Of a stretch of 64,000 bases of DNA, positions 1,066 to 22,621 are shown piece by piece; the stretch's first letter is position 1; each line of letters starts with the position of its first letter. A program made the position numbers and the translations under genes. Source of the stretch: Mycolicibacterium monacense (GTDB lineage: Bacteria > Actinomycetota > Actinomycetes > Mycobacteriales > Mycobacteriaceae); contig NZ_AP022617.1 in assembly GCF_010731575.1 (NCBI RefSeq), positions 4,898,001 to 4,962,000 on the forward strand, in the 5' to 3' direction. Under the pieces are notes generated by a model. The model worked only from the letters and a program-made list of their open reading frames with translations. It ran no database searches and was not told the origin of the DNA.

Positions 1066-1111
1066 GTGGAGCCTAGGAGATTCGAACTCCTGACATCTGC
1101 CTTGCAAAGGC
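1066..1111. repeat. Left attachment site (displaced tRNA-Ala 3' fragment)
   Basis: These 46 bases are identical to 10602-10647. They correspond to tRNA-Ala positions 29-73 (3' anticodon arm, variable loop, T arm and 3' acceptor strand) plus one flanking base, on the minus strand. The sequence beyond 1111 diverges from tRNA, so no functional tRNA is encoded here. It is the scar left when the element's own attP restored the tRNA at the other end. Confidence 0.93.
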
Positions 1112-1193
1112 GAATCGGACCGCTGCTCAGCCCTGTGCACTAGTTATGAGGTGCGCAGCTACATCACTCCAGATCACGGAAGATTCCTGTAAC

Positions 1194-1223
1194 TGTGGGC
1201 AGATTGTGGGCACCGGGTGGGCA
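1194..1223 (+). repeat. Left integrase arm-type sites (three copies)
   Basis: TGTGGGCA occurs at 1194-1201 and 1205-1212, and GGTGGGCA at 1216-1223, with starts exactly 11 bp apart (one helical turn). The same octamer occurs twice with 11-bp spacing near the other end at 10522-10540. Arm-type binding sites for the integrase N-terminal domain are the natural reading, but this is inferred from repetition, spacing and position. Confidence 0.65.
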
Positions 1224-1224
1224 G

Positions 1225-1926
1225 TCAACGCCGATTGGAACTCGGTCGCCACTGCATGTCGGGCACAGGCCCCCGCCAGCCCTCTGGGACGGGCATATTG
1301 CGGTAATCGATCTTGTCTTCGACCCTGCCGAAAACCGTTCGGTCGAGGGGGTGGAAGGGCACCTCGGCTGCTTCCGGACGTTCCGGCCTTATCTCGATAC
1401 GCCCGACAGCAGTACCACCCGGGATCGCCTGCCAGATGGCGACCTCGACTTCGACCTGGGTCTCGTCGAGGACCTGCAAGATCGCGTAGCGGAAGTCCTT
1501 ATCGGCAGAGACCAAGACCACCGTGTCGACTTCGCCCCTAAGGGCATCGATCAGCATCGTGTTGGCCAGCCGGACGTCGACGCCCTTCTCTTCCGCAGTC
1601 CCGTCGCCTTTGTAATTGACGGTCTGCCGGTAAACCTTGCAGCCCCATTTCTCCCATTGAGCCGCGCGCTTGGCCTCCATCAGCGCGCCGCGCGGATCTC
1701 TGGCCGGATCGGGCGCGCCTCGAAACACCTTCGTCAGATGTAATTCGTGGGTGTCCCTCCGAGGTGGGGCTCCGGCTCCCGGCGACTGCAACGCAACGCG
1801 CTTCGCCAGATACAGCGGGTTGACATTGCCCCGGTAACCGGGTTCCCGAGTCAAGCCAAACGCATCTCGAGCACCTGCGTACACATTGCTGTAATCGATG
1901 TACACACCGACTCGCCGCTTGCTCAC
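1225..1926 (-). CDS. NYN-domain (PIN-like) putative RNase
   Basis: A 233-residue protein of the NYN/PIN-like nuclease fold. Acidic metal-binding positions are visible at VGVYIDYSN (Asp11), KGVDVRLAN (Asp117) and VSADKDF (Asp142, Asp144). The tail after about residue 165 is Pro/Arg-rich. The GTG start at 1926 is preferred because CAGGGG lies just upstream and because a longer frame would run through the promoter at 2003-2031. It is the last gene before the left att site, transcribed toward the chromosome edge, which is a usual place for cargo or anti-phage genes in satellites. Family knowledge supports metal-dependent RNA cleavage; an anti-phage or regulatory role is inference. Confidence 0.8.
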   Translation of the reverse strand: MSKRRVGVYIDYSNVYAGARDAFGLTREPGYRGNVNPLYLAKRVALQSPGAGAPPRRDTHELHLTKVFRGAPDPARDPRGALMEAKRAAQWEKWGCKVYRQTVNYKGDGTAEEKGVDVRLANTMLIDALRGEVDTVVLVSADKDFRYAILQVLDETQVEVEVAIWQAIPGGTAVGRIEIRPERPEAAEVPFHPLDRTVFGRVEDKIDYRNMPVPEGWRGPVPDMQWRPSSNRR

Positions 1927-1944
1927 CGATCCCCTGCCACGCTG

Positions 1945-1989
1945 GAGAAAAAAGATGGCCCGGCACCCCCGAAGGGGAAAGACCGGGCC
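1945..1989 (-). terminator. Terminator-like hairpin (possible attenuator) in NYN leader
   Basis: On the minus strand GGCCCGG (1983-1989) pairs with CCGGGCC (1957-1963), and inside it CCCC-TTCG-GGGG forms a very stable UUCG tetraloop. The stem is followed by ATCTTTTTTCTC, a U-rich tract at 1945-1956. It has the form of an intrinsic terminator but sits between the promoter (2003-2031) and the NYN start (1926), so premature termination or attenuation is suggested. Confidence 0.75.
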
Positions 1990-2002
1990 GCAACTGATGT
2001 CC

Positions 2003-2031
2003 AAGTTAGGCAACCTGGACGACACTGTCAA
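2003..2031 (-). promoter_or_regulatory. SigA-type promoter of the NYN gene
   Basis: On the minus strand TTGACA (2026-2031) is followed after exactly 17 bp by TAACTT (2003-2008). Transcription would begin near 1996 and enter the hairpin at 1989 almost at once. This is the clearest consensus promoter in the element. Confidence 0.7.
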
Positions 2032-2368
2032 CAGTTATGACGCCGGGTGCATTCCGCGCCCTGCCTGCATATATACGGCCTAGAACACCGCCCAAGTCGG
2101 GATCGTGGGGGCTCCGCGGTTCGCCCCTTCCTGGAGCCTAGATCGTGGTTCTACGCGGCCGCTAGGCGCCCAAAATGGGCATCCGGCAGGCGGGAACGCC
2201 GACGGTTATGAATCACATCAGTGCAATGTGATATAGATCACTTCGTCGGGGGTCGAGGCGACCCGCGGGGCCTGCTCACGGATGACAACCGGCATTTTCG
2301 TCATGTGACGATTGGCGCTCTGCCGCATCCTGCCTCGCTTGTCGGACCCATATGCGACACTCCGCGGC
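2032..2368. other. Intergenic region between NYN promoter and small ORF
   Basis: No convincing gene is seen across these 337 bp. The region is locally less GC-rich (around 2069-2090 and 2205-2245) and contains overlapping palindromes at 2213-2242, including a CRP-like site. It separates the minus-strand NYN unit from a small plus-strand ORF, so it can hold divergent promoters. Confidence 0.6.
2227..2242. promoter_or_regulatory. CRP-like operator
   Basis: TGTGATATAGATCACT matches the CRP/FNR consensus TGTGA-N6-TCACA at 9 of the 10 fixed positions. An overlapping palindrome, TCACAT-N7-ATGTGA, lies at 2213-2231. The site is about 127 bp before the ATG at 2369. Mycobacterial CRP (Rv3676) uses this consensus; whether it acts here is unknown. 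Confidence 0.5.
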
Positions 2369-2566
2369 ATGGCCTTCAAGGTGTACCGCGACAGCGCCGA
2401 ACCATTTCAAGAGTACGGCGACGATGACCGCTTCGAGATCATCGAGGGTGGGGTTCTGAAGATCCACCGCAAGGATGGAACCACCGTCTACATCAACGCC
2501 ACGCTGTGGGCCAGTGTCGAAGAATCACCACGTTCATCGGCGTACGAAACGCCGGTCATCCTCTAG
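2369..2566 (+). CDS. Small hypothetical protein (65 aa)
   Basis: A 65-residue ORF beginning MAFKVYRDS with a compact acidic/basic composition (YGDDDRFEIIEGG followed by VLKIHRKDGTTVYI). The alternation of charged and beta-branched residues suggests a small beta-rich domain. It is the only plus-strand gene in the left half of the element and lies downstream of the CRP-like site. No Shine-Dalgarno sequence is evident before this ATG, and a longer frame from a TTG at 2312 also exists. I do not recognise a function. Its protein-like composition makes it likely, but not certain, to be real. Confidence 0.5.
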   Translation: MAFKVYRDSAEPFQEYGDDDRFEIIEGGVLKIHRKDGTTVYINATLWASVEESPRSSAYETPVIL

Positions 2567-2690
2567 TTCATCGGCTGTCCCTCGACGTCTGGGGCGGGGT
2601 CACTCCCCTTCCCCTTCGGCATCAAGTTGGGCTTCGAGGATCTGCTGGTCGCCCATTCCCGCTTAGTGGAATTCGCCTAGAACCGCCGGG

Positions 2691-3185
2691 TCAGCCGGGT
2701 TCGCCAACAACGGCCGGCACCCCATACCGTGCCGCCAGCAGCGACCTCATTCGCTCGGCTTCGGCCGATTCGCTGCCGTCACCGAGTACCCACAGCTCGT
2801 CGATGATGCCGGTTGCGGCTCTCAACTCCGGGGCCATGATCGCGTGCTGGTATGGGAAGACCTGCCGTAATGTCACGCGCCCGACCGCGATGGGGCCAAT
2901 CTGTCTCGAGCGATCGGACCAAACCGCGCACCGCCGATGAATCTCTGCTTTCAGCAGAACCTCCGAAGCAGTCGTGAACGCGTAGACACCGCACTCGCAG
3001 TCCGGCACTGGCGGCCAGTGCGCAGCATCTCTATAGCATCGGGCCTCGAAACGCCGCTTCGGCCAGCTGACCCCTTGGTTGCGTTCTGGCTCCGGCCAGT
3101 AATACGGCGACACCAGCATTAACCCGTCGAGGAACGTCTCGTGGACGCACCAGAAGCGCCAACCGGTCGCGGTCCCGATCAACAT
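2691..3185 (-). CDS. Hypothetical protein with CxCGxYA motif
   Basis: A 164-residue protein. It contains a Trp-rich N-terminal part (GWRFWCVHE), then CECGVYAF at about residues 63-70 and GRVTLR at about 102-107. The CxCGxYA...GRV pattern recurs in a poorly characterised group of small actinobacterial proteins; no function is known to me. The ATG at 3185 is chosen because GAAAGG lies 7-8 bases upstream; a TTG five codons earlier is in frame. Its 5' side faces the repeat-dense region 3186-3565, and a 20-bp repeat shared with the 5379 gene lies 40 bp upstream. Confidence 0.7.
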   Translation of the reverse strand: MLIGTATGWRFWCVHETFLDGLMLVSPYYWPEPERNQGVSWPKRRFEARCYRDAAHWPPVPDCECGVYAFTTASEVLLKAEIHRRCAVWSDRSRQIGPIAVGRVTLRQVFPYQHAIMAPELRAATGIIDELWVLGDGSESAEAERMRSLLAARYGVPAVVGEPG

Positions 3186-3225
3186 CGACGTGCCTTTCAA
3201 ACCGTTTGGAACTCATACACACCGG

Positions 3226-3245
3226 CAGGCCCTATGCCATCCGTG
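3226..3245 (+). repeat. 20-bp repeat, copy 1
   Basis: CAGGCCCTATGCCATCCGTG is identical to 5440-5459. Both copies lie upstream of a minus-strand gene (starts at 3185 and 5379) and both are followed within 10-18 bp on the plus strand by a G/C hairpin containing GGGGATACCCC-like sequence. The central CCTATGCC is the same octamer as in the iterons at 3294-3471. Confidence 0.85.
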
Positions 3246-3293
3246 GCCGGTGTCGACAGGGGTGGGGGGATACCCCCCGGGGTTGACGTGGCC

Positions 3294-3471
3294 CGCCGCT
3301 CGAGGCATAGGCGAACAGAGAGGGAGCCGGTTTCTTTTTTGAAAAAATCGTCGGGGGGGGATCGCCTATGCCTTGAGTGGCGGCTGACCAGCGGCGACCG
3401 GGTCAGTCCCCCACCCCCGGTGTGGAAATCGGCCTCTGTGTGTGAAAGCCCCGCCTATGCCTGGAGTGGCG
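3294..3471. repeat. Iteron cluster flanking an A/T island
   Basis: Three 20-bp copies of CGCCTATGCCTNGAGNGGCG are present: 3294-3313 (inverted), 3363-3382 and 3452-3471 (direct). They differ only at the two N positions (C/C, T/T, G/T). The A/T island TTTCTTTTTTGAAAAAA (3331-3347) lies between the inverted and first direct copies. The conserved octamer CCTATGCC also occurs at 3231-3238 and 5445-5452. Confidence 0.85.
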
Positions 3472-3565
3472 ACAGGCCGATTGTCATGGGTTGGTTCCCC
3501 AGGGGGTTGACGTGCGCCGAGGGCGGAGGCAATCACTCGTATCCCTCGACGCACGTCACACTCAC

Positions 3566-4396
3566 TTAGGGGGTGACGACGGTGGTCAGCTTGGCGATGC
3601 GGTCAGTGTGCATGACGTCCCAGCCGAGGCGGAACGTCAGCCGGATCGCGACCACGTCATTGGCGAAGAACGCGTCCTCGCTGCGAGCCAAACGGACCTG
3701 GCTGACCGCGGCGATGACGCTGGATCGGTCGACGACGAGCAGACCACCGACGGGCATCGCAGGGGTTACCGATACCGGGACACCGAGCAGTGCGCGCTGG
3801 CCGGGCTGGGTGACATCGGGACCGATCAACGGCTGCGCGGAGGTATCGCTCACCTTCAGCTTGGACAGTGTCGCCCAGGCGTCGGGTGCTGCGATGATGT
3901 TCGTCGCGGCGCCGCCGACGGCTTCGATCCCGGCGATGGCATCGACGACTGGGTCGAGGTCGGTGTCGATGGCGCCGCCGTCGGTGATGCCGGTGATGTT
4001 GAGCAGACCGGTTGGGGCGGAGGCGTTGCCGAGGTAGGCGGCGTTGGCTTTCCGCACGACCGATCGACGTAGCGAGTTGGTGACCATGCGTGCGGCTTCG
4101 GGCTGCGCCAATGTCTCGTAGCTGTACTTGCCGAGGGCGGCGACCTTGTTCGTGTGGACGACGACCTCGTCGAACTCTTGGGCGGCGTCGGGGATCGGTG
4201 CGCCTTCGGCGACGAATCCGACTGTGCCGTCATCGGAGACGTACGGGACGCGGACGGCGGGTTCGTCACCTTCGATGCGGCCGACCACGGTGGCCGTGGT
4301 CAGGATCAGGGCGTCGGGGATGACGTCGTCGGGGACGTAGGCGGTGATGTCTGGCCGCCATGCGGCGGGGCTGGTAGGTGTGGTCTGAGTAGCCAC
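3566..4396 (-). CDS. HK97-fold major capsid protein
   Basis: A 276-residue phage_capsid-family protein. The pattern of an N-terminal arm, a 'VPYVSDDGTVGFVAEGAPIP' type E-loop region at about residues 52-71, a long helix with RRSVVRKANAAYL, and a C-terminal P-domain ending in AIRLTFRLGWDVMHTDRIA is typical. The GTG at 4396 is preferred (AAAGG upstream; the conserved sequence begins there). It is shorter than HK97 gp5 and lacks an N-terminal delta domain, which fits the separate scaffold gene upstream. It is the last gene of a three-gene morphogenesis operon; no portal, protease or terminase follows. It probably builds satellite capsids packaged with a helper's machinery (inference). Confidence 0.88.
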   Translation of the reverse strand: MATQTTPTSPAAWRPDITAYVPDDVIPDALILTTATVVGRIEGDEPAVRVPYVSDDGTVGFVAEGAPIPDAAQEFDEVVVHTNKVAALGKYSYETLAQPEAARMVTNSLRRSVVRKANAAYLGNASAPTGLLNITGITDGGAIDTDLDPVVDAIAGIEAVGGAATNIIAAPDAWATLSKLKVSDTSAQPLIGPDVTQPGQRALLGVPVSVTPAMPVGGLLVVDRSSVIAAVSQVRLARSEDAFFANDVVAIRLTFRLGWDVMHTDRIAKLTTVVTP

Positions 4397-4522
4397 GATG
4401 AATCGCCTTTCAGGAGAGCGGAATTGGTGGCTCGCCGCTGGCGATGCCGTGGGATGCCCTCCTGGGGCGGTCTGTGGCGGGGGGTCGAGCACCAGGCCCG
4501 AAACCCCCTGCCACAGCCCATT

Positions 4523-5035
4523 CTACTGCTCTCGGCCCATAACGACGTTGACCATGCTGTCGGCGCCGCTGCGTCCGCTGGTGGCGGGGCTGTAGCCCTC
4601 GCGGGGCACGTGCAGCCCGGAGCGGGGCTGCGGAATACCGAACTGTTCACGGATCTCCGCGGCGCGGGTCTGGACCTTGTCGGGGTCGAGTTCGCCCGCC
4701 TCGTTGAGGAGGTCTGCGATTGTGGTGCCGCCGGCCCACAGTGCTGCGCCCTTGGCGAGCATTTTGCCGGCCAGGCGTTCAGCTTCGGCGCGTTGCATCC
4801 CCTCGAGTCGTGCTGCGAGGGTGTCGCGTTCGGCTTCGGTGTCGCGCAGGCGTCGACGGTACTTGGCGGCCTCCCGGTTCCCGTTGTCCGGTTCGGAGTC
4901 TGCGGCGTCGATGTCGTCCGCTGCCGGATCTGCGCTTTCCCTTTCCTCGGAGTCGGTTGTGTCGCCTGCTGTGTCCGCTGCGGCGTTGAAGGTGTCGAGG
5001 TCGACCGGGTCGAATTCGTTGGTGCTGTCAGTCAT
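4523..5035 (-). CDS. Putative phage scaffolding protein
   Basis: A 170-residue protein with a very acidic N-terminal half (residues 1-50), a predicted coiled coil at about 53-90 (KYRRRLRDTEAERDTLAARL) and a C-terminal segment ending in ADSMVNVVMGREQ. This charge pattern, with a position directly upstream of the capsid gene, is characteristic of capsid scaffolds. The ATG at 5035 overlaps the preceding gene's stop as ATGA, so translation is coupled. The C-terminal tail would be the capsid-binding end in known scaffolds; that is family knowledge rather than anything seen here. Confidence 0.72.
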   Translation of the reverse strand: MTDSTNEFDPVDLDTFNAAADTAGDTTDSEERESADPAADDIDAADSEPDNGNREAAKYRRRLRDTEAERDTLAARLEGMQRAEAERLAGKMLAKGAALWAGGTTIADLLNEAGELDPDKVQTRAAEIREQFGIPQPRSGLHVPREGYSPATSGRSGADSMVNVVMGREQ

Positions 5036-5379
5036 TTGGTGTCGTCCTTCTTTGTAGTGGGGATGATGGTGATTCCGGGTAGTTCGCCCGGCGCGATGCC
5101 GAGTCGCTCGGCCTCGGCCTCGGTGATGACGGTGCCGCCGAAGATGCCAGTCACCGTGCGGGCTTCCTCGACGCCAATAGGTATGCCGTCGGGGTCGCAG
5201 ATCACCTTGCCGGGGATCGTGCCGCTGCACGGCTTCCCTGCCGCCGCTGATTGGCGTTCGAGGGCCTCACGCGTTAACCCGGGGGTTGGCACGACGTCTT
5301 GCGGGGTGCGTTCGGCGGTACTGAACACCTGGCGCACCCAATCGCGCGTCTCATCGTCTTGCTCGTTGCCTTCCTGCAC
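5032..5379 (-). CDS. Hypothetical protein of the morphogenesis operon
   Basis: A 115-residue protein with an acidic N-terminus (MQEGNEQDDETRDWVRQVF) and a C-terminal small beta-rich domain containing GTVITEAEAERLGI and LPGITIIP. Two Cys residues (PCSG and VICD, about residues 51 and 61) may pair or bind metal. The GTG start has a good GGAG seven bases upstream. It is the first gene of the capsid operon, preceded by the 20-bp repeat at 5440-5459 and ending in an ATGA overlap with the scaffold gene. I do not recognise it; a role in capsid size, head completion or control of helper assembly is possible but unsupported. Confidence 0.72.
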   Translation of the reverse strand: MQEGNEQDDETRDWVRQVFSTAERTPQDVVPTPGLTREALERQSAAAGKPCSGTIPGKVICDPDGIPIGVEEARTVTGIFGGTVITEAEAERLGIAPGELPGITIIPTTKKDDTK

Positions 5380-5439
5380 GTCAACTCCTATGTGTGTGAA
5401 ACGGGGGTCCGAAAAGGTTTTGAGTTCTGCACAGACAGT

Positions 5440-5459
5440 CAGGCCCTATGCCATCCGTG
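5440..5459 (+). repeat. 20-bp repeat, copy 2
   Basis: This is identical to 3226-3245. It lies 61 bp upstream of the GTG of the first morphogenesis gene (5379) and just before the hairpin at 5469-5493. It is a candidate binding site for a regulator that co-activates the 5379 operon and the 3185 gene. Confidence 0.85.
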
Positions 5460-5468
5460 CCCTGGTTG

Positions 5469-5493
5469 ACCGGGGGGAGGGGGTATCCCCGGT
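5469..5493 (-). terminator. GC hairpin after the replication gene
   Basis: ACCGGGG (5469-5475) pairs with CCCCGGT (5487-5493) across an 11-base loop, ten bases past the stop of the replication gene at 5504. There is no U tract, which is common for mycobacterial terminators. It may end the early operon, or form part of the repeat-plus-hairpin control element. Confidence 0.5.
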
Positions 5494-5503
5494 GGCTTCC
5501 ACG

Positions 5504-7285
5504 TCATGCGGATTCCTCCCCGTCGGTGGGCGGGTTGATGATGTGCCAGATTCGGTTGGACTTGCTTCGCCCGCGGGCGGGCACGCTCTGGATGCGCGGG
5601 GAGTCGCGGGCGGTGGCCCTGACGGTTTCCCACCCGTAGCCGGCGGCCTGTCCAGCGATGCGGACTTCGTCGGGTGTGACCTCGGTGCGGCCAAGGGTGT
5701 CGAGGTAGTCGTCGAGCCATTGGCGGACGGGCCGATAAGTGTGCTGCCGGTCGGGGGTGATCGACCATGTAACCCTGCCGCCGGCGCGGTCGATGACGGC
5801 GATGTCGGGGTGCGCTCTGGCAGCGTTGGCGAGGGTGGACATGGTGTACCCAGCGGCCTCTCCCGCCTGGTATACAGCAAATGCCGGGACAGTCGTGTGG
5901 CCTGCCGCTTGCAGTTCGTCGATGTGATCGGCGAACCACTTCACTGCGGTCACCTTCGGGCGGGGAGAATCCGCCGACCTGCGGGAATCCAAGTGCGTGA
6001 CTGTGGCTTGCAGTTCAGGGCTGAACTCACGGTTCAGGGCCTCTGACCTGCCGATATCGGGGCTGAACTCGGATTCAGGGCTGAACTCGGGGTTCAACTC
6101 CAATTGTGCACCACCTTGCGTGGCCTCAATGCGGGTGATCATACCGTTTGCAGCTAACTCTGCTATCGCCGCTTCGAGCAGCTCGCGGTACTCCTTCTTG
6201 CCCATCCTGGCCCGTAGATCACCGCGCGATATCCGGCCATCGGCGAGGACCTTGAGCACCCTGCGCTTCACCACGTCGAGGCGCCGTTGATCGATGAACT
6301 CCTCCCCGACCGCGCGCGCCATCGCACGATCCTGAGCCTTGGCCCGTGCTGCCCGGCGCGCCTCGTTCACGATCCAGTCCCGGGTGGAATCGGACACCGC
6401 CATCACCGTCTCGGATAGCTGCCAGTCCAACTCGGAGATCACAGAGCGGTGGTGCATGATCGCCAGGCCCGCGGCGACCTTGCAGCGGGTCAGCATGCGG
6501 TGCCCATCCAAGGCGTTGGCTTCACCGCGTTGGCGCGCGAGGTGCGCGGCGATGATCTGCTCGCGGATCTCGCTGGGACCGTACTGGATCTCCACGGTGT
6601 CGGTCGTGCGACTCCACGCGGGCAGAGAGGTTTCTAGGGGTGCAGGATCGTCGGGCGGGTCCGCGGGCATGTCCGGGTCGGTGGTCGGGACCCACAGCAC
6701 TCGCTGCGGTGTGCCCCCACTCGTGTCGTTAAAGATGACGTCGCAGTGACCGGGTTGGGCGCCGACGCTCATCACGCAGCGGTAGCTGTGTGGGAGCACC
6801 ACACGCGTTGTGGCCTCCGAGGCGTTGGACTGCCCGATCAACTCGCCCATCACCGCGGCCTTGAGTTGAGCGAGCAAGATGGATCCTTGCCGTGACGCGA
6901 TGCCGGTTAGCGAGTCGATCTCACTGACGTTGATGATCGCCTGGGTGATCCGTTCGACGCCCTCCTTTTTCGGAGGGGCGAAGAGCGCGGCGATGCCCTC
7001 GCCGGAGCCGATGGGGCGTTCGATGATCGGCGTTGGCCACGCCAGTCGTGCGACCTTGTCGCTGATGCCTTTCCCGCCGCCGGACGGGGAGACGAACGCG
7101 CCGATCAGATTCAGTGATGCCGGCCCCCCGATCACGCCGGGCAGCTGGACGCCGGGGCTGGTGCTGGCGTGCACCCGGAGGAGGACCGCAAGGAACACGG
7201 CCCACTTGGCGGCGAAACGTGCGTGTGCCCACTGCCTGATCGTCTGGAGTTGGGGAGTCGCGTCGAAGAACTCGTCGCCGGTCAA
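5504..7285 (-). CDS. P-loop replication protein (DUF3987-like helicase/primase-type)
   Basis: A 593-residue protein. SPSGGGKG at about residues 66-73 is an atypical P-loop (Gly follows the Lys), with a Walker-B-like IINVSEID at about 117-124. The middle is helical and a winged-helix-like segment (LADGRISRGDLRARM) lies near 350. A linker at about 392-425 repeats EFSPE/EFSPD three times, and the C-terminal 120 residues look like a second DNA-binding domain. The TTG start overlaps the DUF2742 stop and is preceded by AGGAGA. Satellites and phiRv-type elements carry a comparable large ATPase in this slot, so replication initiation or unwinding is likely, but the exact activity is inferred. Confidence 0.72.
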   Translation of the reverse strand: MTGDEFFDATPQLQTIRQWAHARFAAKWAVFLAVLLRVHASTSPGVQLPGVIGGPASLNLIGAFVSPSGGGKGISDKVARLAWPTPIIERPIGSGEGIAALFAPPKKEGVERITQAIINVSEIDSLTGIASRQGSILLAQLKAAVMGELIGQSNASEATTRVVLPHSYRCVMSVGAQPGHCDVIFNDTSGGTPQRVLWVPTTDPDMPADPPDDPAPLETSLPAWSRTTDTVEIQYGPSEIREQIIAAHLARQRGEANALDGHRMLTRCKVAAGLAIMHHRSVISELDWQLSETVMAVSDSTRDWIVNEARRAARAKAQDRAMARAVGEEFIDQRRLDVVKRRVLKVLADGRISRGDLRARMGKKEYRELLEAAIAELAANGMITRIEATQGGAQLELNPEFSPESEFSPDIGRSEALNREFSPELQATVTHLDSRRSADSPRPKVTAVKWFADHIDELQAAGHTTVPAFAVYQAGEAAGYTMSTLANAARAHPDIAVIDRAGGRVTWSITPDRQHTYRPVRQWLDDYLDTLGRTEVTPDEVRIAGQAAGYGWETVRATARDSPRIQSVPARGRSKSNRIWHIINPPTDGEESA

Positions 7286-7656
7286 GATGCTCTCCTAGAA
7301 GCCGTTGGGCGGGCCCAGGGGTGTGCTTCATCCCACTGGGCGCGCTGGAGTTGTTGGTGCGCGATCTGTGACCACGGGGCCGCCGTCGATATCTCCTGGT
7401 TCGCCTCGGCGCGTGCCGCTTGAGCTGTCTCCATGCGCAGAGCATGGTGTTCACCGGCGGCAGCCAACGCGAGCAACTTCCGCGGGTCGCTGTCGGCCAG
7501 GGCTCCCCATGCGGGGGTTCCGGCCATTGGCAATGATCCTGTGTTGGCCTGCGCGAGAACAGCTTCGAGGAACACATGGGTGGCCCACCACGAAACCTCT
7601 TGTGACGCGGAAGTGCCCGCCCCAATGGGGCGGGTCTCCCTGTGCGCTCTGGTCAC
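7282..7656 (-). CDS. DUF2742 phage protein
   Basis: A 124-residue protein with the DUF2742 features: VSWWATHVFLEAVL, LPMAGTPAWGALADSDP and an alanine-rich helical half (HHALRMETAQAA) ending in IAHQQLQRAQWDEAHPW. I recognise the family from Rv1583c and Rv2656c of the phiRv1 and phiRv2 elements; its function is unknown. The GTG start has GGAG five bases upstream and overlaps the previous stop (GTGA); the 3' end overlaps the replication gene the same way. The WW..H motif and the coupling to the replication protein suggest they act together. Confidence 0.82.
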   Translation of the reverse strand: MTRAHRETRPIGAGTSASQEVSWWATHVFLEAVLAQANTGSLPMAGTPAWGALADSDPRKLLALAAAGEHHALRMETAQAARAEANQEISTAAPWSQIAHQQLQRAQWDEAHPWARPTASRRAS

Positions 7657-7790
7657 TGGCGCTCCGCCTCAGCACCAAGCAGTCTCGAAAAGTGCACCGC
7701 GAAGCGCACTTTCCCAGACCAGTCGGTGCAATCTTCGCCAGCGAAAGCGCGGCAGAGCTGGCAAGCGGCGTTGAGTGGTTCGGCGGTCAT
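7653..7790 (-). CDS. Small zinc-finger-like phage protein (45 aa)
   Basis: A 45-residue ORF with Cys-x2-Cys-x6-Cys and a downstream His: CQLCRAFAGEDC followed by GKVRFAVHFSRL. This C-x2-C...C...H pattern with Gly and Arg nearby is common in tiny zinc-binding proteins of actinophages. The ATG overlaps the upstream stop (ATGA), AGGG precedes it, and its own stop overlaps the next start, so it is embedded in the translationally coupled early operon. Confidence 0.72.
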   Translation of the reverse strand: MTAEPLNAACQLCRAFAGEDCTDWSGKVRFAVHFSRLLGAEAERQ

Positions 7791-8146
7791 CGGGTCAATC
7801 CCTGTTGAATGTCGGCGGCCCGGACCAGCGTCGCCGCCAACGATCTGGCGGCGTCGGAGCGTAACCGGAGCGTCTGCTCGACCCACTCCGCGCCGATGTA
7901 TTTTTCGATGGTCAGCTCGATGCCGTCGAAGCGTTGGCCATCGGCTGCGAGCTCGCCCGACGTCAGGGCGCTTGGGTGAGCCATCGAGGTCGCAGTGACC
8001 CATATGTTCGGCGGGTGCGGCTCGCCTTCGAGCGGGATGGTTTTGACGCCGTGAACCATCCGCATGCAGTACGGATAGGTGTCGTGGTGGGTTTCGCCGG
8101 TACCACGGTGGTCGCACCACACGGCGTGGAAGTCCGTTGCGCTCAT
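7787..8146 (-). CDS. Hypothetical protein, DUF6907-like
   Basis: A 119-residue protein. The N-terminal part has CDHRGTGETHHDTYPYC, a Cys/His cluster that could bind metal, and the C-terminal part (LRLRSDAARSLAATLVRAAD) resembles the helical end of DUF6907-type actinobacterial proteins. The resemblance is weak and I give it only as a lead. The ATG overlaps the upstream stop (ATGA) and the stop overlaps the next ATG. It belongs to the early operon under the excisionase promoter. Confidence 0.68.
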   Translation of the reverse strand: MSATDFHAVWCDHRGTGETHHDTYPYCMRMVHGVKTIPLEGEPHPPNIWVTATSMAHPSALTSGELAADGQRFDGIELTIEKYIGAEWVEQTLRLRSDAARSLAATLVRAADIQQGLTR

Positions 8147-8439
8147 CGCTTCACCGCCTCGTCGCCTTCGAGGACGTCGTTCGCACGGTCCAGCGCTACG
8201 GCGGCGCGGCGCAGATGGCCGAGTGCGGTGACAACGTCAGCGACCGCGAACAACGGTGCCGTCTCTGGCAGGTCGCGTAAGACGTCGTTGATGTCGTGGC
8301 GCAGGAGGTCGACGCGGTTGGCGGCGACGTCGAGCCGTTGGCTGGGCGACTCCGGTGGTACGTAGGTGGCGCAGAACGCGCACACATCGCTGTCGCAGGT
8401 GGGTACCGTGCAGTGCAGGCATTGCTTTACAGTGGTCAT
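8143..8439 (-). CDS. Small zinc-ribbon protein (98 aa)
   Basis: A 98-residue protein with an N-terminal four-cysteine ribbon (CLHCTVPTCDSDVCAFC, residues 7-23) and a helical C-terminal domain (about 35-95, RLDVAANRVDLLRHDIND). A clear AGGAAGG lies before the ATG. The stop overlaps the next start as ATGA. Zinc ribbon plus helical bundle suggests nucleic-acid or protein binding; the function is unknown. Confidence 0.75.
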   Translation of the reverse strand: MTTVKQCLHCTVPTCDSDVCAFCATYVPPESPSQRLDVAANRVDLLRHDINDVLRDLPETAPLFAVADVVTALGHLRRAAVALDRANDVLEGDEAVKR

Positions 8440-8441
8440 GA

Positions 8442-8582
8442 CTAACCTTCCTGGTGATGGGTGAGTTCAGACGCCGTCAGGGCTGCCACCCTGGCGGCGT
8501 CATAATTTCGGGGCCGCATATCCTCGGTCCGGTCGGCCTCAGGATCAAGGCCGAGATCTTCGTGCTGCGGGTAGATCCGCAT
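8442..8582 (-). CDS. Small hypothetical protein (46 aa)
   Basis: A 46-residue ORF beginning MRIYPQHEDLGLDPEAD and ending in a helical segment (YDAARVAALTASEL). Its ATG shares one base with the excisionase stop (TGATG) and its stop is two bases before the next ATG. That continuous spacing in a coupled operon is the main evidence that it is translated. No family is recognised. Confidence 0.6.
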   Translation of the reverse strand: MRIYPQHEDLGLDPEADRTEDMRPRNYDAARVAALTASELTHHQEG

Positions 8583-8791
8583 CAGGCAGCGCCGCCGATG
8601 CGATTCGCCGCGAGGTAGGCGACTACGTCTTCGCGGAGGTACCTGACGCGGCCGCCGATCTTCACGTAAGGGATGCCTCTGCGGCGATACCTGTCCTGGC
8701 TGAGCGCGTCGACAGTTGTTTGTACGACTCTCGCCACTTGGGAGGCGGTTGCGACTGGAGGCAGCGCCTCCGGCGCAAGGAGATCGGCCAT
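8582..8791 (-). CDS. Excisionase-like MerR/AlpA-type HTH protein
   Basis: A 69-residue helix-turn-helix protein: VATASQVARVVQTTVDALSQ forms the HTH and IPYVKIGGRVRYLREDVVAYL is the wing and dimer helix typical of the HTH_17/excisionase family. It is the first gene of the leftward early operon, directly downstream of the divergent operator region, with AAAGGA before its ATG. It probably acts as recombination directionality factor with the integrase, and perhaps as an early regulator. A counterpart sits in the same place in phiRv elements (family knowledge). Confidence 0.82.
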   Translation of the reverse strand: MADLLAPEALPPVATASQVARVVQTTVDALSQDRYRRRGIPYVKIGGRVRYLREDVVAYLAANRIGGAA

Positions 8792-8817
8792 TGATGTTTC
8801 CTTTCAATCGTTTGAGA

Positions 8818-8900
8818 GATCGTTTGGATCTCTCGCGAGGTAATAATGCATCACGATTCGCAACGTGGTCAAGTGAATCGCTGGAGAGATCCAAACGATC
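8818..8900. promoter_or_regulatory. Divergent operator pair (switch region)
   Basis: GATCGTTTGGATCTCTC (8818-8834) and its exact reverse complement (8884-8900) face each other across 49 bp. The left copy is also part of a palindrome, GAGAGATC-GTTTG-GATCTCTC (8814-8834), and ATCGTTTG is repeated at 8807-8814. One operator covers the start point of the leftward promoter; the other lies just upstream of the -10 of the rightward promoter. Binding by the repressor encoded at 8916 would shut off early genes and its own gene (inference). Confidence 0.8.
8843..8872 (-). promoter_or_regulatory. Leftward early promoter
   Basis: On the minus strand TTGACC (8867-8872) and CATTAT (8843-8848) are 18 bp apart, placing the start near 8836, immediately before the left operator. 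It would drive xis through the replication gene. Confidence 0.62.
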
Positions 8901-8903
8901 GCC

Positions 8904-8909
8904 TATCGT
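8904..8909 (+). promoter_or_regulatory. -10 box of a leaderless repressor transcript
   Basis: TATCGT ends seven bases before the GTG at 8916, so the predicted start point is the first base of the start codon. Leaderless mRNAs are common in mycobacteria. The right operator (8884-8900) occupies the spacer/-35 region. Confidence 0.55.
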
Positions 8910-8915
8910 TGTCTC

Positions 8916-9437
8916 GTGACTCCTACACCGGATGCCTCGAAGGCGCTGACCAAGAACCCGTTGGGAGCAACCGGCGAGGCCGTTGCCGCCAACGTCGAGC
9001 GGCTGCGCACCGAGCAGAACCTGACATTCGCTGCGCTGTCCGAGCGGCTGTCTCGGATCGGGCGGCCGATCCCAACGCTCGGATTGCGCAAGATCGTTGC
9101 CGAGACGCGGCGGGTCGACGCGGACGACCTGGCCGCTTTAGCTGCGGCACTTGATGTTTCGCCGGTTACCCTGCTGATGCCTGAGACGTCTGATGCTGAC
9201 GAGCAAGTGTCGGTCACAGGCAAGGAGGGGCCGGTGCCAGCGGGGCAGGTATGGGACTGGTTGCGCGCGTGGGAGACGATCGACCGTAAAGGCCGGCTTG
9301 AGTGGTTCATTCGTTCCTGGCCCGTTTGGGACAGGGATCGCCTCGCCGAAAAGCTCGACGCCTTCAAGCAGCGGCAGGAAGACCACTTGCAGCGTCGGCG
9401 GGTAGCCAAGGGAGAGGCCGCTGATGGCAACGATTGA
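8916..9437 (+). CDS. XRE-family repressor
   Basis: A 173-residue protein with an N-terminal helix-turn-helix (about residues 18-88): VAANVERLRTEQNLTFAALS, then IPTLGLRKIVAETRRVDADD and LAAALDVSPVTLL. The C-terminal half is a helical region with WDWLRAWETIDRKGRLEWF and a basic tail. No Shine-Dalgarno sequence precedes the GTG; a -10 box seven bases upstream points to a leaderless message. It is divergent from the excisionase operon and overlaps the integrase start by 14 bp, so repressor and integrase are made from one transcript. It is the likely immunity repressor of the element, binding the 17-bp operators. Confidence 0.85.
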   Translation: MTPTPDASKALTKNPLGATGEAVAANVERLRTEQNLTFAALSERLSRIGRPIPTLGLRKIVAETRRVDADDLAALAAALDVSPVTLLMPETSDADEQVSVTGKEGPVPAGQVWDWLRAWETIDRKGRLEWFIRSWPVWDRDRLAEKLDAFKQRQEDHLQRRRVAKGEAADGND

Positions 9438-10554
9438 AAAGTACGAGACGAGCTCCGGCGCGGTCCGTTACCGGGTGCGGTACCGGACGCCGGACCGTCG
9501 ACAGACTGACAAACGAGGGTTCCGCACCAAACGGGATGCCGAAGCGTTCGCCAACCAGCTCGAGGTGGACAAGCGGCGTGGGTCGTATGTAGCGCCGGCC
9601 GCCGGTCGGGTGAAACTGGGGGAGTACGCGCAGGAGTGGCTCGCGTCGAAACACAACCTCAAGCCGTCGACCCGGTCCCGGTATCAGGTGGTGCTGGACA
9701 CCTTCATTGCGGAGCACGCACACGTCGCGCTGGGGGACATCTCGCGGCAGCTCGTGCGCGATTGGGTGGCCGAGATCAGTTCGGATCGATCACCGGCCAC
9801 GGTGCACAAGGTGGTCGGTGTGTTGCGCCAGGTGCTCGCGATGGCGGTGTCGGACAACCGCCTGGTGCTGAACCCGGTCGACGGTGTCGAACTGCCCGCG
9901 GTGGGGACGGTCGAGCAGCGGTTCCTCACCCTCGAACAGCTGCACGCGCTGGCGGCGGCGTCGGGCGAGCACCGGGCGTTGGTTTACGTGCTCGGGACGT
10001 GCGGGTTGCGGTTCGGTGAGGCTGCGGAGCTTCGGTGGCGTGATGTCGACCTCGACCGACTGATGATCAGGGTCACGCGGTCTGTGGTGCTCGTGGACAA
10101 CAAGTTCGTGGTGGGGTCGCCGAAGGGCGGCAAGGGCCGCACGGTGAGCCTGCCGGCCTTCGTCGCCGATCTGCTGCTGTCCGGTAGTTGTGCAGCAGCA
10201 GACGAACTAGTGTTCCCGGACTCCGCGGGTGGTCACATGCGGGGGACCAACGTGCGGCGGCGGTGGTGGTCTCAGGCGGTCACTGAGGCGCAGCTGTTTC
10301 CGACCATGACGGACCACGACACGGTGGTCTATGAGTTTAAGTTGCACGAGTTGCGGCACACAGCGGCGTCGTTGGCGATTCAGGCGGGCGCGAACATCAA
10401 GAGCTTGCAGAACATGCTGGGACACGAGAGCGCAGCCCTCACCCTGGACCGTTACGGCCATCTGTACGGGTCGGATGTGGATGCGGTCGGGGTGGCAATC
10501 AACGCGTTGTTGACTCGTGATTGTGGGCATAGTGTGGGCACGGACGCGGCCTAG
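9424..10554 (+). CDS. int: Tyrosine-family site-specific integrase
   Basis: A 376-residue tyrosine recombinase. An N-terminal AP2-like arm-binding domain (about residues 1-58, YRVRYRTPDRRQTDKRGFRT), a core-binding SAM-like domain (about 62-155) and the catalytic domain follow. Catalytic residues seen are Arg196 (CGLRFGE), Lys234 (SPKGGKGRT), His308 and Arg311 (HELRHT), His334 (LGHES) and Tyr344 (LDRYGHLY). The start overlaps the repressor gene; GGGAG precedes it. The end is 47 bp from the tRNA-Ala att site, and the last codons contain two arm-type repeats. The C-terminus ends in -DAA, which resembles an ssrA-like tag; in some mycobacteriophage integrases such a tag causes proteolysis. Confidence 0.95.
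   Translation: MATIEKYETSSGAVRYRVRYRTPDRRQTDKRGFRTKRDAEAFANQLEVDKRRGSYVAPAAGRVKLGEYAQEWLASKHNLKPSTRSRYQVVLDTFIAEHAHVALGDISRQLVRDWVAEISSDRSPATVHKVVGVLRQVLAMAVSDNRLVLNPVDGVELPAVGTVEQRFLTLEQLHALAAASGEHRALVYVLGTCGLRFGEAAELRWRDVDLDRLMIRVTRSVVLVDNKFVVGSPKGGKGRTVSLPAFVADLLLSGSCAAADELVFPDSAGGHMRGTNVRRRWWSQAVTEAQLFPTMTDHDTVVYEFKLHELRHTAASLAIQAGANIKSLQNMLGHESAALTLDRYGHLYGSDVDAVGVAINALLTRDCGHSVGTDAA
10522..10540 (+). repeat. Right integrase arm-type sites (two copies)
   Basis: TGTGGGCA at 10522-10529 and 10533-10540, 11 bp apart, inside the last codons of int. They are in the same orientation and spacing as the copies at 1194-1223, and lie 61 bp from the core repeat. Confidence 0.65.
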
Positions 10555-10601
10555 ACGCAGAACAGGCCAGACCACATAGGGTCTGACCTGCCGTTTGACT
10601 T

Positions 10602-10647
10602 GTGGAGCCTAGGAGATTCGAACTCCTGACATCTGCCTTGCAAAGGC
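10602..10647. repeat. Right attachment site within tRNA-Ala
   Basis: These 46 bases are identical to 1066-1111. They form the 3' part of the intact tRNA-Ala gene, so the element's attP supplied a working tRNA end on integration. Confidence 0.93.
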
Positions 10648-10675
10648 AGCGCTCTACCAACTGAGCTAAGGCCCC
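10603..10675 (-). tRNA. alaT: tRNA-Ala (TGC anticodon)
   Basis: A 73-nt cloverleaf: the acceptor stem GGGGCCT pairs with AGGCTCC including the G3:U70 identity pair of alanine tRNAs, with anticodon loop TTTGCAA (TGC) on a 5-bp CTGCC/GGCAG stem and T loop TTCGAAT. CCA is not encoded. It is the integration target of the element. Its mycobacterial counterpart is alaT next to ileT and gyrA. Confidence 0.97.
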
Positions 10676-11894: not shown

Positions 11895-14405
11895 TCAGAC
11901 CGCATCCGGGTCGGTGTTGACCTCGTCGGTGCTGTCGCCCGCCTCGGCGTTGCGCGCGATGGCAATCAGTGTGTCGCCCTCACCCAGGTTCATCAACCGA
12001 ACGCCCTTCGTCTGTCGCCCGGCCTTGCGGACCTGGCGGGCAGCCGTCCGGATGACACCTCCACCCGAGGTGATCGCGTACAACTCCGTGTCGTCATCGA
12101 CGATCAACGCCCCGACAAGATTGCCACGTCGGCGGTCGTACTGGATCGTCAGGATGCCCTTTCCGCCTCGACCCTGCGCGGTGTACTCCTCGATCGAGGT
12201 GCGCTTGGCGTAGCCACCGCTGGTCGCCACCAGCAGGTAGGTGTCCGGTCGCACCACGTTGAGGGACAGCAGTTCGTCGTCGGCGTTGAACCGCATGCCC
12301 TGCACACCGGAGGTCGCGCGGCCCATCGGCCGCAGCGCCTCGTCGGTGGCGGAGAACCGGATCGACTGGCCCTTGGCCGACACCAGCAGGAGGTCGTCCT
12401 CGGACGAGCAGAGCACGGCTCCGACCAGTTCGTCACCGTCGCGCAGGTTCACCGCGACGATGCCGCCGGACCGGTTGGAGTCGAAGTCGGTCAACCGCGA
12501 CTTCTTCACCAGACCGTTGCGGGTGGCCAACACCAGATACGGCGCGTCCTCGTAGCTCTTGATCTGGATGACCTGCGCGATGCGCTCGTTGGGCTGGAAG
12601 GCCAGCAGGTTCGCGACGTGCTGACCGCGCGCCGTGCGGGACGCCTCCGGCAACTCGTAGGCCTTCGCCCGGTACACCCGGCCCTGGGTGGTGAAGAACA
12701 GGATCCAGTCGTGGGTGGAGCAGACGAAGAAGTGGTTGACGATGTCGTCCTGCTTGAGGCCGGCGCCCTGCACACCCTTGCCGCCGCGCTTCTGGCTGCG
12801 GTAGAGGTCGGTCTTGGTGCGTTTGGCGTATCCGGTCTCGGTGATCGTGACGACGACGTCCTCGCGGGCGATCAGATCCTCGTCGCTGACCTCGCCGTCG
12901 GCGGGCACGATGCGGGTCCGGCGGTCGTCGCCGTACTTGTCGGCGATCTCCTTGAGCTCGTCGCGCACGATCGCGCGTTGACGTTCCGGCTTGGCGAGGA
13001 TGTCCTCGAGGTCGGCGATCTCAGCTTCGATCTTGGCCAGGTCGTCGACGATGCGCTGACGCTCCAGGGCGGCCAGGCGCCGCAGCTGCATGTCGAGGAT
13101 CGCCTGGGCCTGGATCTCGTCGATGTCGAGCAGCTCGATCAGGCCGGCCCGCGCGATGTCGACGGTCTGCGACGCGCGGATCAACGCGATGACCTCGTCG
13201 AGGGCGTCGAGCGCCTTGACCAGACCGCGCAGGATGTGGGCCCGCTCGTTGGCCTTGCGCAGCCGGTACCGGGTGCGCCGCACGATCACGTCGAGCTGGT
13301 GTTCCACGTAGTAGCGGATCATCTGGTCGAGACGCAGCGTGCGGGGGACACCGTCGACGATCGACAGCATGTTGGCCCCGAAGCTGGTCTGCAGCTGGGT
13401 GTGCTTGTAGAGGTTGTTCAGCACCACCTTGGCCACGGCGTCGCGCTTGAGTTCGACGACGATGCGCAGGCCGACACGGTCACTGGACTGGTCCTCGATG
13501 TTCGAGATGCCGGCCAGCTTGCCGTCGCGGACCTGCTCGGCGATCGAGGTGATGAAGTTGTCGTGGTTGACCTGATACGGCAATTCGGTGATGACGATGC
13601 CGGTCCGCCCGCGGCTGTCCTCTTCGATCTCCACGACGCCGCGCATCTTCACCGAGCCGCGCCCGGTCTTGTACGTGTCCTCGATGCCCTGGCTGCCCAC
13701 AATGAGTCCGTGGGTGGGGAAGTCCGGACCCTTCACGCGTTCCATCACCGCGGCGAGCGTCGTCTCCTCGTCGGCCTCGAAATTCTCCAGGCACCAGTAG
13801 ACGGCGTCGGCCAGCTCGCGCAGGTTGTGCGGTGGGATGTTGGTCGCCATACCGACCGCGATCCCGCCCGAACCGTTGGCCAGCAGGTTCGGGAACCGGC
13901 TCGGCAGGACGGTCGGCTCCTGCACCCGGCCGTCGTAGTTCGGAATGAAATCGACTGTCTCCTCGTCGATTTCACGTAACATCTCCATCGCGAGGGGGGT
14001 CAGCCGCGCCTCGGTGTACCGCATCGCGGCCGGCGGATCGTTACCCGGCGAGCCGAAGTTGCCCTGCCCGTCGACCAACGGGTAGCGCAGCGACCACGGC
14101 TGCGCCATGCGGACCAGGGTGTCGTAGATCGAGGAGTCGCCGTGCGGGTGGTAGTTACCCATCGTCTCGGCAACGGAGCGTGCGGATTTCGCGTGTCCAC
14201 GGTCCGGACGGAAGCCGGAGTCGAACATCGCGTAGAGCACGCGGCGGTGCACCGGCTTGAGGCCGTCACGCACCTCGGGCAGCGCACGCCCGACGATAAC
14301 GCTCATCGCGTAGTCGATGTAGCTGCGCTGCATCTCCTGCTGGATGTCGACCGGTTCGATGCGGTCTCCGGCTTCGTCGCCAGGAGGCAACGTGGTATCA
14401 GTCAT
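11895..14405 (-). CDS. gyrA: DNA gyrase subunit A
   Basis: An 836-residue type IIA topoisomerase subunit that breaks and rejoins DNA to introduce negative supercoils with GyrB. The catalytic Tyr130 is in [10 protein letters not shown]. The quinolone-resistance region reads [13 protein letters not shown]: residue 91, which aligns with Ala90 of M. tuberculosis, is Ser here. The GyrA box [10 protein letters not shown] (DNA-wrapping C-terminal domain) is at about 542-551. No intein interrupts the Tyr130 region. It starts 33 bp after gyrB in the same operon. Confidence 0.98.
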
Positions 14406-14438
14406 CGATGATTCCTAAGTATTTCGGTCGAACGTAGT

Positions 14439-16583
<2,145 letters not shown>

Positions 16584-21133: not shown

Positions 21134-22621
21134 TCAGCGCTTGGCGCGCTGGCGGATCCGCGTGGTGAGTTCCTTGACGTGATCGAACACCTCGCGGCGT
21201 TCGGCCATCTCGCCGCGGATCTTCTTCTCCGCGTACATCACGGTCGTGTGGTCGCGGCCGAACGCCTGCCCGATCTTCGGCAGCGACAAGTCGGTGAGCT
21301 CGCGGCACAGGTACATCGCGATCTGGCGGGACTGCGCCAGCGCCCTGGTCTTACCCGGGCCGCGGAGCTCTTCGATCGTGGTCTCGAAGTACTCGGCGGT
21401 GGCGGCCATGATCGCCGCGGTCGAGATCTGCATGGTGCTGGCGTCGGAGATGAGATCCCGCAGCACGATCTCGGCGAGCGACTTGTCGATCGGGGTCTTG
21501 TTGAGCGAGGCGAACGCGGTGACCCGGATCAGCGCCCCTTCGAGCTCGCGGATGTTGCGCTCGATGCTGCTGGCGATGAGCTCGAGGACGTCGTCGGGAA
21601 CGTCGAGCCGGTCCATCTGGGCCTTCTTGCGCAGAATCGCGATTCGGGTCTCGAGTTCGGGCGGCTGCACATCGGTGATCAGCCCCCATTCGAACCGCGT
21701 CCGCAGCCGATCCTCCAGTGTCGCCAGCTGTTTGGGCGGCCGGTCGGAGGAGATGACGATCTGCTTGTTCGCGTTGTGCAGCGTGTTGAAGGTGTGGAAG
21801 AACTCTTCCTGGATACCTTCCTTGCCCTCGATGAACTGGATGTCGTCGACCAGCAGCACGTCGATGTCGCGGTAACTGCGCTTGAACGACGCCTTGCGGT
21901 CGTCGCGCAGCGAGTTGATGAAGTCGTTGGTGAATTCCTCGGTGGAGACGTACTTCACGCGCATACCGGGGAAGAGGCGTTGGGCATAGTTACCGGCCGC
22001 ATGCAGCAGATGGGTCTTGCCCAGACCGGACTCACCCCAGATGAACAACGGGTTGTACGCCCGGGCCGGCGCCTCGGCGATGGCCAGCGTCGCCGCGTGG
22101 GCGAACCGATTGGAGGCGCCGATGACGAACGTGTCGAACGTGTAGCGCCGGTTGAGGCTGACGGCGTTCGGATCTTCGGCGGCCGGGGTCTCGGGCGGGC
22201 GGCTGAAGTAGCGCGGCCAGGTCTCTTCGGCGCTGACCCGGGCTTCGGTGTCCTCGTCGACCTCGTCGATGTCGGCGATCACCGGGGACGGCGGCGGGTC
22301 GTCGTCCTCGGGGGAGGGGGTGGCGATCCGCACACCGAGTTCCACCCGTTGACCGAGGTGGCGGCTCAAGGCGGTGATGATCGGTTCGCGGAGGTGACGT
22401 TCGATCTCGTTCTGGACGAACGGTGTCGGAACCGACAGCAGGGCGAAACCCTCGGTGATCACGAGCGGCTTGACCAGTTTCAGCCAGGCTCGTTGCTGCG
22501 GGGTCAGGGTCGGCAGCGCACCGTCACCGTTGCGCGGTCCCGTGGCGGCCGGGTCACCGTTGAGTTCGGCGACGACGGTGTTCCAGACCGCGACAAAAGG
22601 TGGGTCGGGGTCGGCTGTCAA
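21134..22621 (-). CDS. dnaA: Chromosomal replication initiator protein DnaA
   Basis: A 495-residue AAA+ initiator. Domain I (about 1-90) includes [17 protein letters not shown]; Walker A is [15 protein letters not shown], Walker B is [15 protein letters not shown], and domain IV carries the DnaA signature [14 protein letters not shown]. Domain II is acidic and disordered. TTG start with AAGGGGG upstream, as in other mycobacterial dnaA genes. DnaA boxes in the upstream region suggest autoregulation. Confidence 0.97.

Follow-up and report, generated by a model that had tools for sequence, protein, structure and literature searches.

A 9.5-kb capsid-encoding element in a tRNA-Ala gene of Mycolicibacterium monacense carries cos-like sites that suggest packaging by helper phages

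How could a mobile element that encodes its own capsid, and no detectable machinery to fill it, be packaged and spread? This question is raised by a 9.5-kb unit inserted in a tRNA-Ala gene of Mycolicibacterium monacense. The unit lies in a window of 64,000 nucleotides (assembly GCF_010731575.1, contig NZ_AP022617.1, positions 4,898,001 to 4,962,000; coordinates below count from the first letter of the window). We compared the element with phages and with 39 related loci (L036-L074); of the resulting 40 loci, L054 duplicates L040 and several are cut by contig ends. We consider it probable that the element is an integrated cos-type satellite, of a mycobacterial class resembling phage-inducible chromosomal islands (PICIs), which would build its own head and use the terminase, portal and tail of a helper phage. 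A first-pass annotation, made from the sequence alone, had proposed a satellite with its own capsid and borrowed packaging and tails. That proposal is supported; packaging by a helper and self-assembly of the capsid are the parts that we infer.

The capsid protein is the sole structural match among the element proteins in Pfam and PHROGs, and neither library gave a match to a terminase, portal, tail, holin or lysin at E ≤ 0.1, which bears out the absence of these genes in the first reading. The element thus lacks the terminase, portal, tail and lysis genes of an intact prophage. By family match it also lacks the portal, protease, connectors and terminase subunits of a capsid-forming PICI (cf-PICI); the major capsid protein that cf-PICIs encode is present (PF05065 and fold match). 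The terminases and portals of three phages were searched against the 39 relative loci (tblastn, E ≤ 10−3), and the only matches lay in L040 and its duplicate L054, beyond the attachment (att) repeat. We also scanned 249 relative proteins of at least 60 residues, encoded between 5.2 kb ahead of the capsid gene and 2.5 kb past it, with 16 clusters set aside (c14 being unannotated). No terminase or portal was among the matches listed (the best 25 of 84, 143, 41 and 39 families), which included helicases, primases, HNH nucleases, possible defence cargo (TIR, Schlafen, methylases), one adaptor (Phage_Gp19) and one tail protein (Sipho_Gp37).

Positive evidence for the borrowing of DNA packaging is provided by the noncoding DNA after the capsid gene. 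Three sites in this region (A, B and C, Table 1) resemble the cos junctions, that is the genome ends, of 38-60-kb actinobacteriophages. Local alignment pairs CGCCACTCAAGGCAT and AGGCGATCCCCCCCC of the window, on the two sides of the predicted cut, with CGCCCCTCATGGCTT and AGGCGACCGCCCCCCC of phiGD21-1. To express such likeness as a rank, the junction was placed among all 120-bp windows of complete phages; the best ranks of site B fall in phiGD21-1 and in Sneeze (recorded as Gclasvirinae), while in KeAlii and ReT1v it ranks 42 and 296. Blastn against end-joined phages placed L055 and L051 across the phiGD21-1 junction and L058 across the junctions of both phiGD21-1 and Sneeze, L051 being weakly placed at the Sneeze junction as well (E 0.06). 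At the level of sequence, the element has the counterpart of what cos-type Staphylococcus aureus pathogenicity islands (SaPIs) have, a cos-like site matching those of candidate helper phages. Sites B and C (3293-3383) are convergent and 59 bp apart; the same convergent pair is seen in L036 (63 bp) and L056 (72 bp).

We built a profile of 22 columns from 10 of 13 phage junctions (core near GGCAT/AGGCG, the slash marking the junction) and from three prophage sites (L101, L109, G222), which a search pattern derived from both phages and satellites had located. Three junctions, those of Sarge, PropG4 and ReT1v, were not used, as the ends given in their records did not fit. The top profile match is the genome end in both Sneeze (25.8, next 11.3) and phiGD21-1 (27.1, next 10.3). 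In the 341 kb of 38 satellites, from which the duplicate L054 and L052 with its broken capsid gene were left out, 17 matches scored at least 15. Sixteen of these are intergenic although about 80% of the DNA is coding, and the seventeenth lies within the capsid gene of L073. At the same threshold no match was found in 227,589 bp of flanking DNA or at 11001-64000 of the window, and 17 were found in 3,410,340 bases of shuffled DNA. Intergenic first-type sites occur in 10 of the 38 satellites, with the highest score (30.3) in L055. L055 is a second satellite in the genome of the window element (C1, capsid gene at 1,519,864-1,520,697), with a capsid of the same family at 46-48% identity.

The motif was also searched for beyond the satellites. 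In IMG/VR, the pattern GGC[AT]TAGGCG.{1,4}GCCCCCC matched 34 contigs and stands before terminase genes in 16, 14 of these being of phiGD21-1 type; chance appears to account for the remaining 18. The motif likewise precedes terminase genes in the G222 prophage. In the 6.04-Mb genome of the element, the pattern CNCTCAWGGCWTAGGC has two matches, just after the two satellite capsid genes; it was written partly from these two sites, and the result is the lack of a third match. A G/C palindrome lies upstream of 10 of 15 phage and 10 of 18 satellite sites, as against 16% of random intergenic positions in elements. An A/T tract lies downstream of 10 of 15 phage and 12 of 18 satellite sites, as against 5% of random intergenic element positions and 0% of host positions. 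Each of these two features is seen at two of the five cos-like sites in the window.

The remaining two of these five sites, IIa and IIb, resemble, less surely, the cos of another group of phages, represented by KeAlii and ReT1v. The terminases of this group differ: in three pairs compared, BLASTP barely aligned them with the phiGD21-1 and Sneeze terminases (best E 0.002 to 0.5). The two sites rank at or near the top in KeAlii and ReT1v (Table 1; the ReT1v cut was set 14 bases inside the record), and IIa and IIb rank 15 and 3 of 1,422 in Sneeze and 488 and 146 of 1,364 in phiGD21-1. Since their scores of 28-29 are no higher than those of the best chance windows of other queries, support for them comes from rank and from L036, which behaves alike (scores 33 and 31, rank 1 in both). 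The split by type is imperfect: rank 1 is also reached by L055 in KeAlii and by one of the L051 sites in ReT1v. Scans of IMG/VR with patterns of the second motif gave one contig without any window protein and, in a second scan, none. We had earlier read the 5431/3217 repeat as a shared promoter, a reading given up once two complete phages aligned the repeat to genome ends. Look-alike sites in L064, L066, L068 and L069 did not pass the rank test, with ranks from 3 to 1,132 across four phages, and we do not count them as second-type cos.

It is possible, if doubtful, that the element is a multi-helper satellite, in which terminases of two lineages (Sneeze/phiGD21-1-like and KeAlii/ReT1v-like) would recognize five sites of two cos types and load the one 9.5-kb DNA into the element's private capsid. 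We now hold this to be slightly less likely than at first, because the second-type scores are within the range of chance bests. If true, it would mean that the choice of head and that of helper are uncoupled, the element combining its own head with a borrowed motor and portal and with several packaging dialects.

Several observations weigh against the cos reading and the satellite built on it. Sneeze and phiGD21-1, the test phages for the first type, also belong to the training set of the profile; the best profile match in ReT1v (15.4) is not its junction; and intergenic first-type sites reaching the threshold are missing from 28 of the 38 satellites. In the rank test, sites A and C fall behind B. 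Over 297 genomes, CNCTCAWGGCWTAGGC gave 6 matches (4 of them satellite sites) against 15 for the reversed control, so that it is not enriched overall, and random host positions show the G/C palindrome in 28% of cases. When the window element was compared with end-joined phages by plain blastn, its cos-like sites were not placed. Direct BLAST of the post-capsid or site DNA against phages returned nothing relevant, in part because a linear phage record has one half of cos at either end. A head-tail adaptor gene found in some relatives is absent from the window element and from L036, its twin with a 95% identical capsid, and portal docking stands without explanation. Finally, the post-capsid repeats might partly serve as a replication origin. 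They could even be an origin or a regulatory site instead of cos, which we regard as quite improbable. The iteron-like repeats, the AT tract and the inverted repeat would suit such a role, as would the location of IIa and IIb just upstream of genes, but the first-type sites align to phage genome ends, precede terminase genes in prophages and co-occur with different clusters of replication proteins. This explanation is stronger for IIa and IIb than for the first-type sites.

Taken as cos, the sites suggest that helper phages load and spread the element. In the mechanism that we propose, a helper would lift repression and the element would excise and replicate. The capsid and scaffold proteins of the element would form a head with room for about 9 kb. 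The helper terminase, probably with its HNH nuclease, would cut at a cos site and fill this head through the helper portal, after which a helper tail would be attached. Searches with PF03354, PF04860 and two phage terminase proteins found no resident helper in the genome of the element. As controls, the two Pfam families match in 3 and 4 of 14 control genomes and the phiGD21-1 terminase query recovers the prophage in G222 (E 3.7e-237), the ReT1v query being without a positive control. In four other satellite hosts, the phiGD21-1 query gave no match in three and a weak match in one.

To what extent the head would be the element's own depends on the capsid and scaffold genes. The AlphaFold model of the capsid protein (predicted local distance difference test score, pLDDT, 79.5) matches the capsids of HK97, SaPI1 and the cf-PICI EcCI2 among 373 matches at E ≤ 0.001. 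A homolog (E ≤ 1e-3) is encoded in 131 of 297 congeneric genomes, the own genome included, many of these being weak or distant matches. In contrast, in 50,697 phage records no match was found for the capsid at E ≤ 1e-3 (tblastn) or for the scaffold at E ≤ 1e-2. The naming of the latter as a probable scaffold is favoured by its position before the capsid gene in most relatives; it belongs to no named family and has a weak match (9e-4) to a PHROG of unknown function. The head-tail adaptor cluster follows the capsid gene in 7 distinct relatives, and the member tested matches the head-tail adaptor phrog_1290 (6e-49). For three of the seven carriers, the adaptor was compared with phages: the L040 adaptor best matches Mycobacterium phages (76-82%), that of a Rhodococcus ruber element Rhodococcus phage ReT1v (71%) and that of L037 an M. 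abscessus phage (55.6%). The connector is thus common to phages and these elements, and the capsid is private. A family 2A encapsulin is also among the fold matches of this small HK97-type protein (rank 37); an encapsulin-like or domesticated shell without DNA transfer is hardly credible, given the integrase, excisionase-like, replication and scaffold genes and the cos-like sites.

The main rival concerns how the capsid protein is used. In SaPIbov5, DNA is packaged at cos by the helper terminase and the island protein Ccm only joins and shrinks a shell made by the helper: according to the available parts of PMC8569155 and PMC5052747, Ccm forms the pentamers and the helper protein the hexamers, and Ccm alone makes no capsids. 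Our element has the same two parts, a cos and a capsid protein, and no portal. We nonetheless hold such remodelling to be unlikely. Ccm and the phi12 capsid protein share 24% identity and N-terminal delta domains and work without a separate scaffold (PMC8569155, same parts), whereas the candidate helper phages use a separate scaffold and the element has a probable one of its own, conserved as a cluster in 34 of 40 loci. BLASTP found nothing significant between the capsid proteins of the element and Sneeze (E 0.15), and 276 residues would leave little room for a delta domain. The delta-domain capsid homolog without separate scaffold that marks cos-type SaPIs is thus not what the element encodes. 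SaPIbov5 and the element resemble each other in their small genome, their cos for the helper terminase and their capsid-protein homolog; they differ in that Ccm, with its delta domain, needs the helper capsid protein, and in that the element has a probable scaffold and possibly two cos types.

Comparison of the relatives bears on whether a satellite is at hand at all, as opposed to a decayed prophage in which some head genes happen to survive. Gene order is largely constant: integrase, repressor, excisionase, small genes, replication protein, in some loci the 115-aa gene, scaffold, capsid, an optional adaptor and cargo. The capsid cluster is present in all 40 loci, the scaffold in 34, the integrase in 31 and the 115-aa protein in 12. 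Clear att repeats were found in 23 of 39 loci (the window and 38 relatives), after loci with no repeat, self-overlap, or short or non-tRNA repeats (L055, 18 bp; L064, 24 bp) were dropped. They bound elements of 7,736-12,349 bp (median 9,071), 22 of the 23 being below 10.1 kb, and overlap a predicted tRNA gene in 21. The few head genes would be consistent with decay, and some relatives are broken (a split capsid gene in L052, capsid and portal fragments in L083 at the same tRNA-Ala), but the narrow size range, a gene order kept over capsids 38-95% identical, purifying selection (capsid dN/dS, the ratio of nonsynonymous to synonymous substitution rates, of 0.088 between the window and L036), a capsid family unseen in phage records, and intact att repeats with an empty site make decay very improbable. 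The first-pass annotation had itself asked for hidden terminase or portal genes and for relatives carrying all late genes; searches of the element gave neither gene, the relatives largely share its gene order, and to the extent examined the satellite reading holds.

The insertion itself is well defined. Perfect 46-bp direct repeats, 9,536 bp apart from start to start, bound the element, and the right copy is the 3' part of the intact tRNA-Ala gene. The insertion is real, since in G014 the flanking DNA without the element is one piece (C13:293113-293777; joined flanks, 79% over 643 bases). The 9.5-kb unit in tRNA-Ala was therefore rightly delimited at first sight, and so was its place near the origin and gyrase: by their translations, gyrA, which adjoins, and gyrB lie at 11895-16466 and dnaA at 21134-22621, the element ending some 10-12 kb from the dnaA region. 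The tRNA-Ala gene beside gyrA looks like a hotspot, because the same 46-bp core occurs twice, about 7-10 kb apart, in G018, G034, G004 and G037. In G004, G018, G034 and G037 (L081, L070, L082 and L083, respectively), integrase matches are 62-90% identical to the L070 integrase, the match in L082 spanning 79 residues only; besides its integrase match, nothing but the capsid and portal fragments was detected in L083.

This kind of element is already published, as candidate mycobacterial PICIs. The accessible part of PMC10654092 includes phiRv1 and phiRv2 among them, in agreement with the likeness noted at first reading, and describes an integrase and a major capsid gene in one integrated region, as here, with transfer undemonstrated; some candidates lie in tRNA genes and some have scaffold or terminase genes. 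Neither the term 'cos site' nor 'packaging signal' is used in that text, and what we propose as new are the cos-like packaging sites and the candidate helper groups. We found no report of cos sites in such elements or of satellites with several cos sites in literature whose subscription part was thinly covered, which is no proof of novelty; PMC9006064 on cos sites concerns, in the part available, ordinary phages. Among the PICI hallmarks in the accessible text of PMC6092414, the element has a specific attachment site with an integrase and genes exclusive to islands (capsid and scaffold, as judged against phage records). The same text names phage-dependent induction, interference with phages, a conserved organisation of the replication origin and specific packaging into phage-like particles; as to the origin, repeats lie after the capsid gene but the main ones match phage cos, and as to packaging, the element offers cos-like sites at the level of sequence. 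Like cf-PICIs of the EcCI2 type, it has its own HK97-fold capsid and would borrow tails; unlike them, as described in the portion of PMC10690885 at hand, it has no detected protease, portal, connectors, terminase subunits (cf-PICIs encode both) or HNH gene. The Streptomyces satellites MulchRoom and MiniFlayer (same portion) are also actinobacterial and make their own capsids, but have terminase and portal genes and no primase homologs, the reverse of our element. An own capsid without portal or motor would constitute a new point between P4/SaPI and cf-PICI satellites, and would raise the question of how a foreign portal enters a private shell. The cos-like sites point to likely groups of helpers and lead to exact predictions of where virion DNA should end, for elements whose induction and transduction are stated as open in PMC10654092, as far as its accessible part goes.

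The features of the element are collected in Table 1. The family matches confirm the integrase, repressor, excisionase, replication protein, DUF2742 protein and capsid named at first. The 115-aa protein yielded a partial predicted model without fold match at E ≤ 0.001, and the 169-aa protein has no family match in Pfam or PHROGs. The NYN-domain protein is possibly anti-phage cargo.

Table 1. Coordinates of the element's features in the window (the slash in a predicted cut separates the two positions flanking it; HTH, helix-turn-helix; ORF, open reading frame).
Feature	Position	Strand	Evidence
Distal att repeat, copy of tRNA-Ala 3' end	1066..1111	.	46/46 identical to 10602-10647
NYN-domain protein, possible cargo nuclease	1225..1926	-	PF01936 2e-10; partial match PADLOC HEC-09 2e-8
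169-aa protein, possible cargo	2691..3200	-	cluster in 3/40 loci, one a duplicate record
Second-type cos-like site IIb, predicted cut near 3234/3233	3217..3276	-	73% copy of 5431-5490; rank 1/1,402 KeAlii, 3/1,396 ReT1v
First-type cos-like site C, inverted; one arm of inverted repeat I1	3293..3314	+	profile 22.3; rank 1/1,364 phiGD21-1, 35/1,422 Sneeze
First-type cos-like site B, predicted cut 3368/3367	3362..3383	-	profile 26.6; rank 1/1,422 Sneeze (score 33), 1/1,364 phiGD21-1 (score 48)
First-type cos-like site A, predicted cut 3457/3456	3451..3472	-	phage-trained profile 20.0; rank 5/1,422 and 10/1,364
HK97-fold major capsid protein, 276 aa, GTG start	3566..4396	-	PF05065 2.7e-26
Probable scaffold protein, 170 aa	4523..5035	-	cluster in 34/40 loci, mostly directly before capsid
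115-aa protein opening head operon	5032..5379	-	cluster in 12/40 loci
Second-type cos-like site IIa, predicted cut near 5448/5447, upstream of head operon	5431..5490	-	junction rank 1/1,402 KeAlii, 1/1,396 ReT1v
Replication protein (primase/helicase type)	5504..7285	-	phrog_28894 6e-55, DNA polymerase/primase
DUF2742 protein	7282..7656	-	PF10888 1e-29
45-aa zinc-finger-like ORF (weak)	7653..7790	-	Phage_zn_bind_8 0.042, below cut-off
119-aa conserved protein	7787..8146	-	cluster in 3/40 loci
98-aa conserved protein	8143..8439	-	cluster in 3/40 loci
46-aa conserved protein after excisionase	8442..8582	-	cluster in 5/40 loci
Excisionase-like HTH protein	8582..8791	-	phrog_66 7.5e-6; HTH_17 6.6e-6, just under cut-off; cluster in 12/40 loci
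HTH repressor	8916..9437	+	phrog_11503 2e-28; phrog_4583 transcriptional repressor 1e-7
Tyrosine integrase	9424..10554	+	PF00589 6e-20, phrog_1 2e-69
Intact tRNA-Ala (tgc) with integrase-side att core 10602-10647	10602..10675	-	empty site in G014

Three further observations concern other loci. A small protein cluster lies between the replication protein and the scaffold in 10 of the 40 loci, the window element not being one of them; a weak likeness to WhiB was seen in the single member examined (phrog_9926 6e-4; below cut-off for Pfam Whib). In G159, L098 has a cos-like site at a contig end, with no match to a capsid or terminase marker within 10 kb, and is possibly another type of satellite. 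Next to the L040 element, an adjoining region on the opposite strand (L040:13600-20822), beside a tRNA cluster, has its own capsid with portal and terminase matches and is nearer to a cf-PICI or a prophage.

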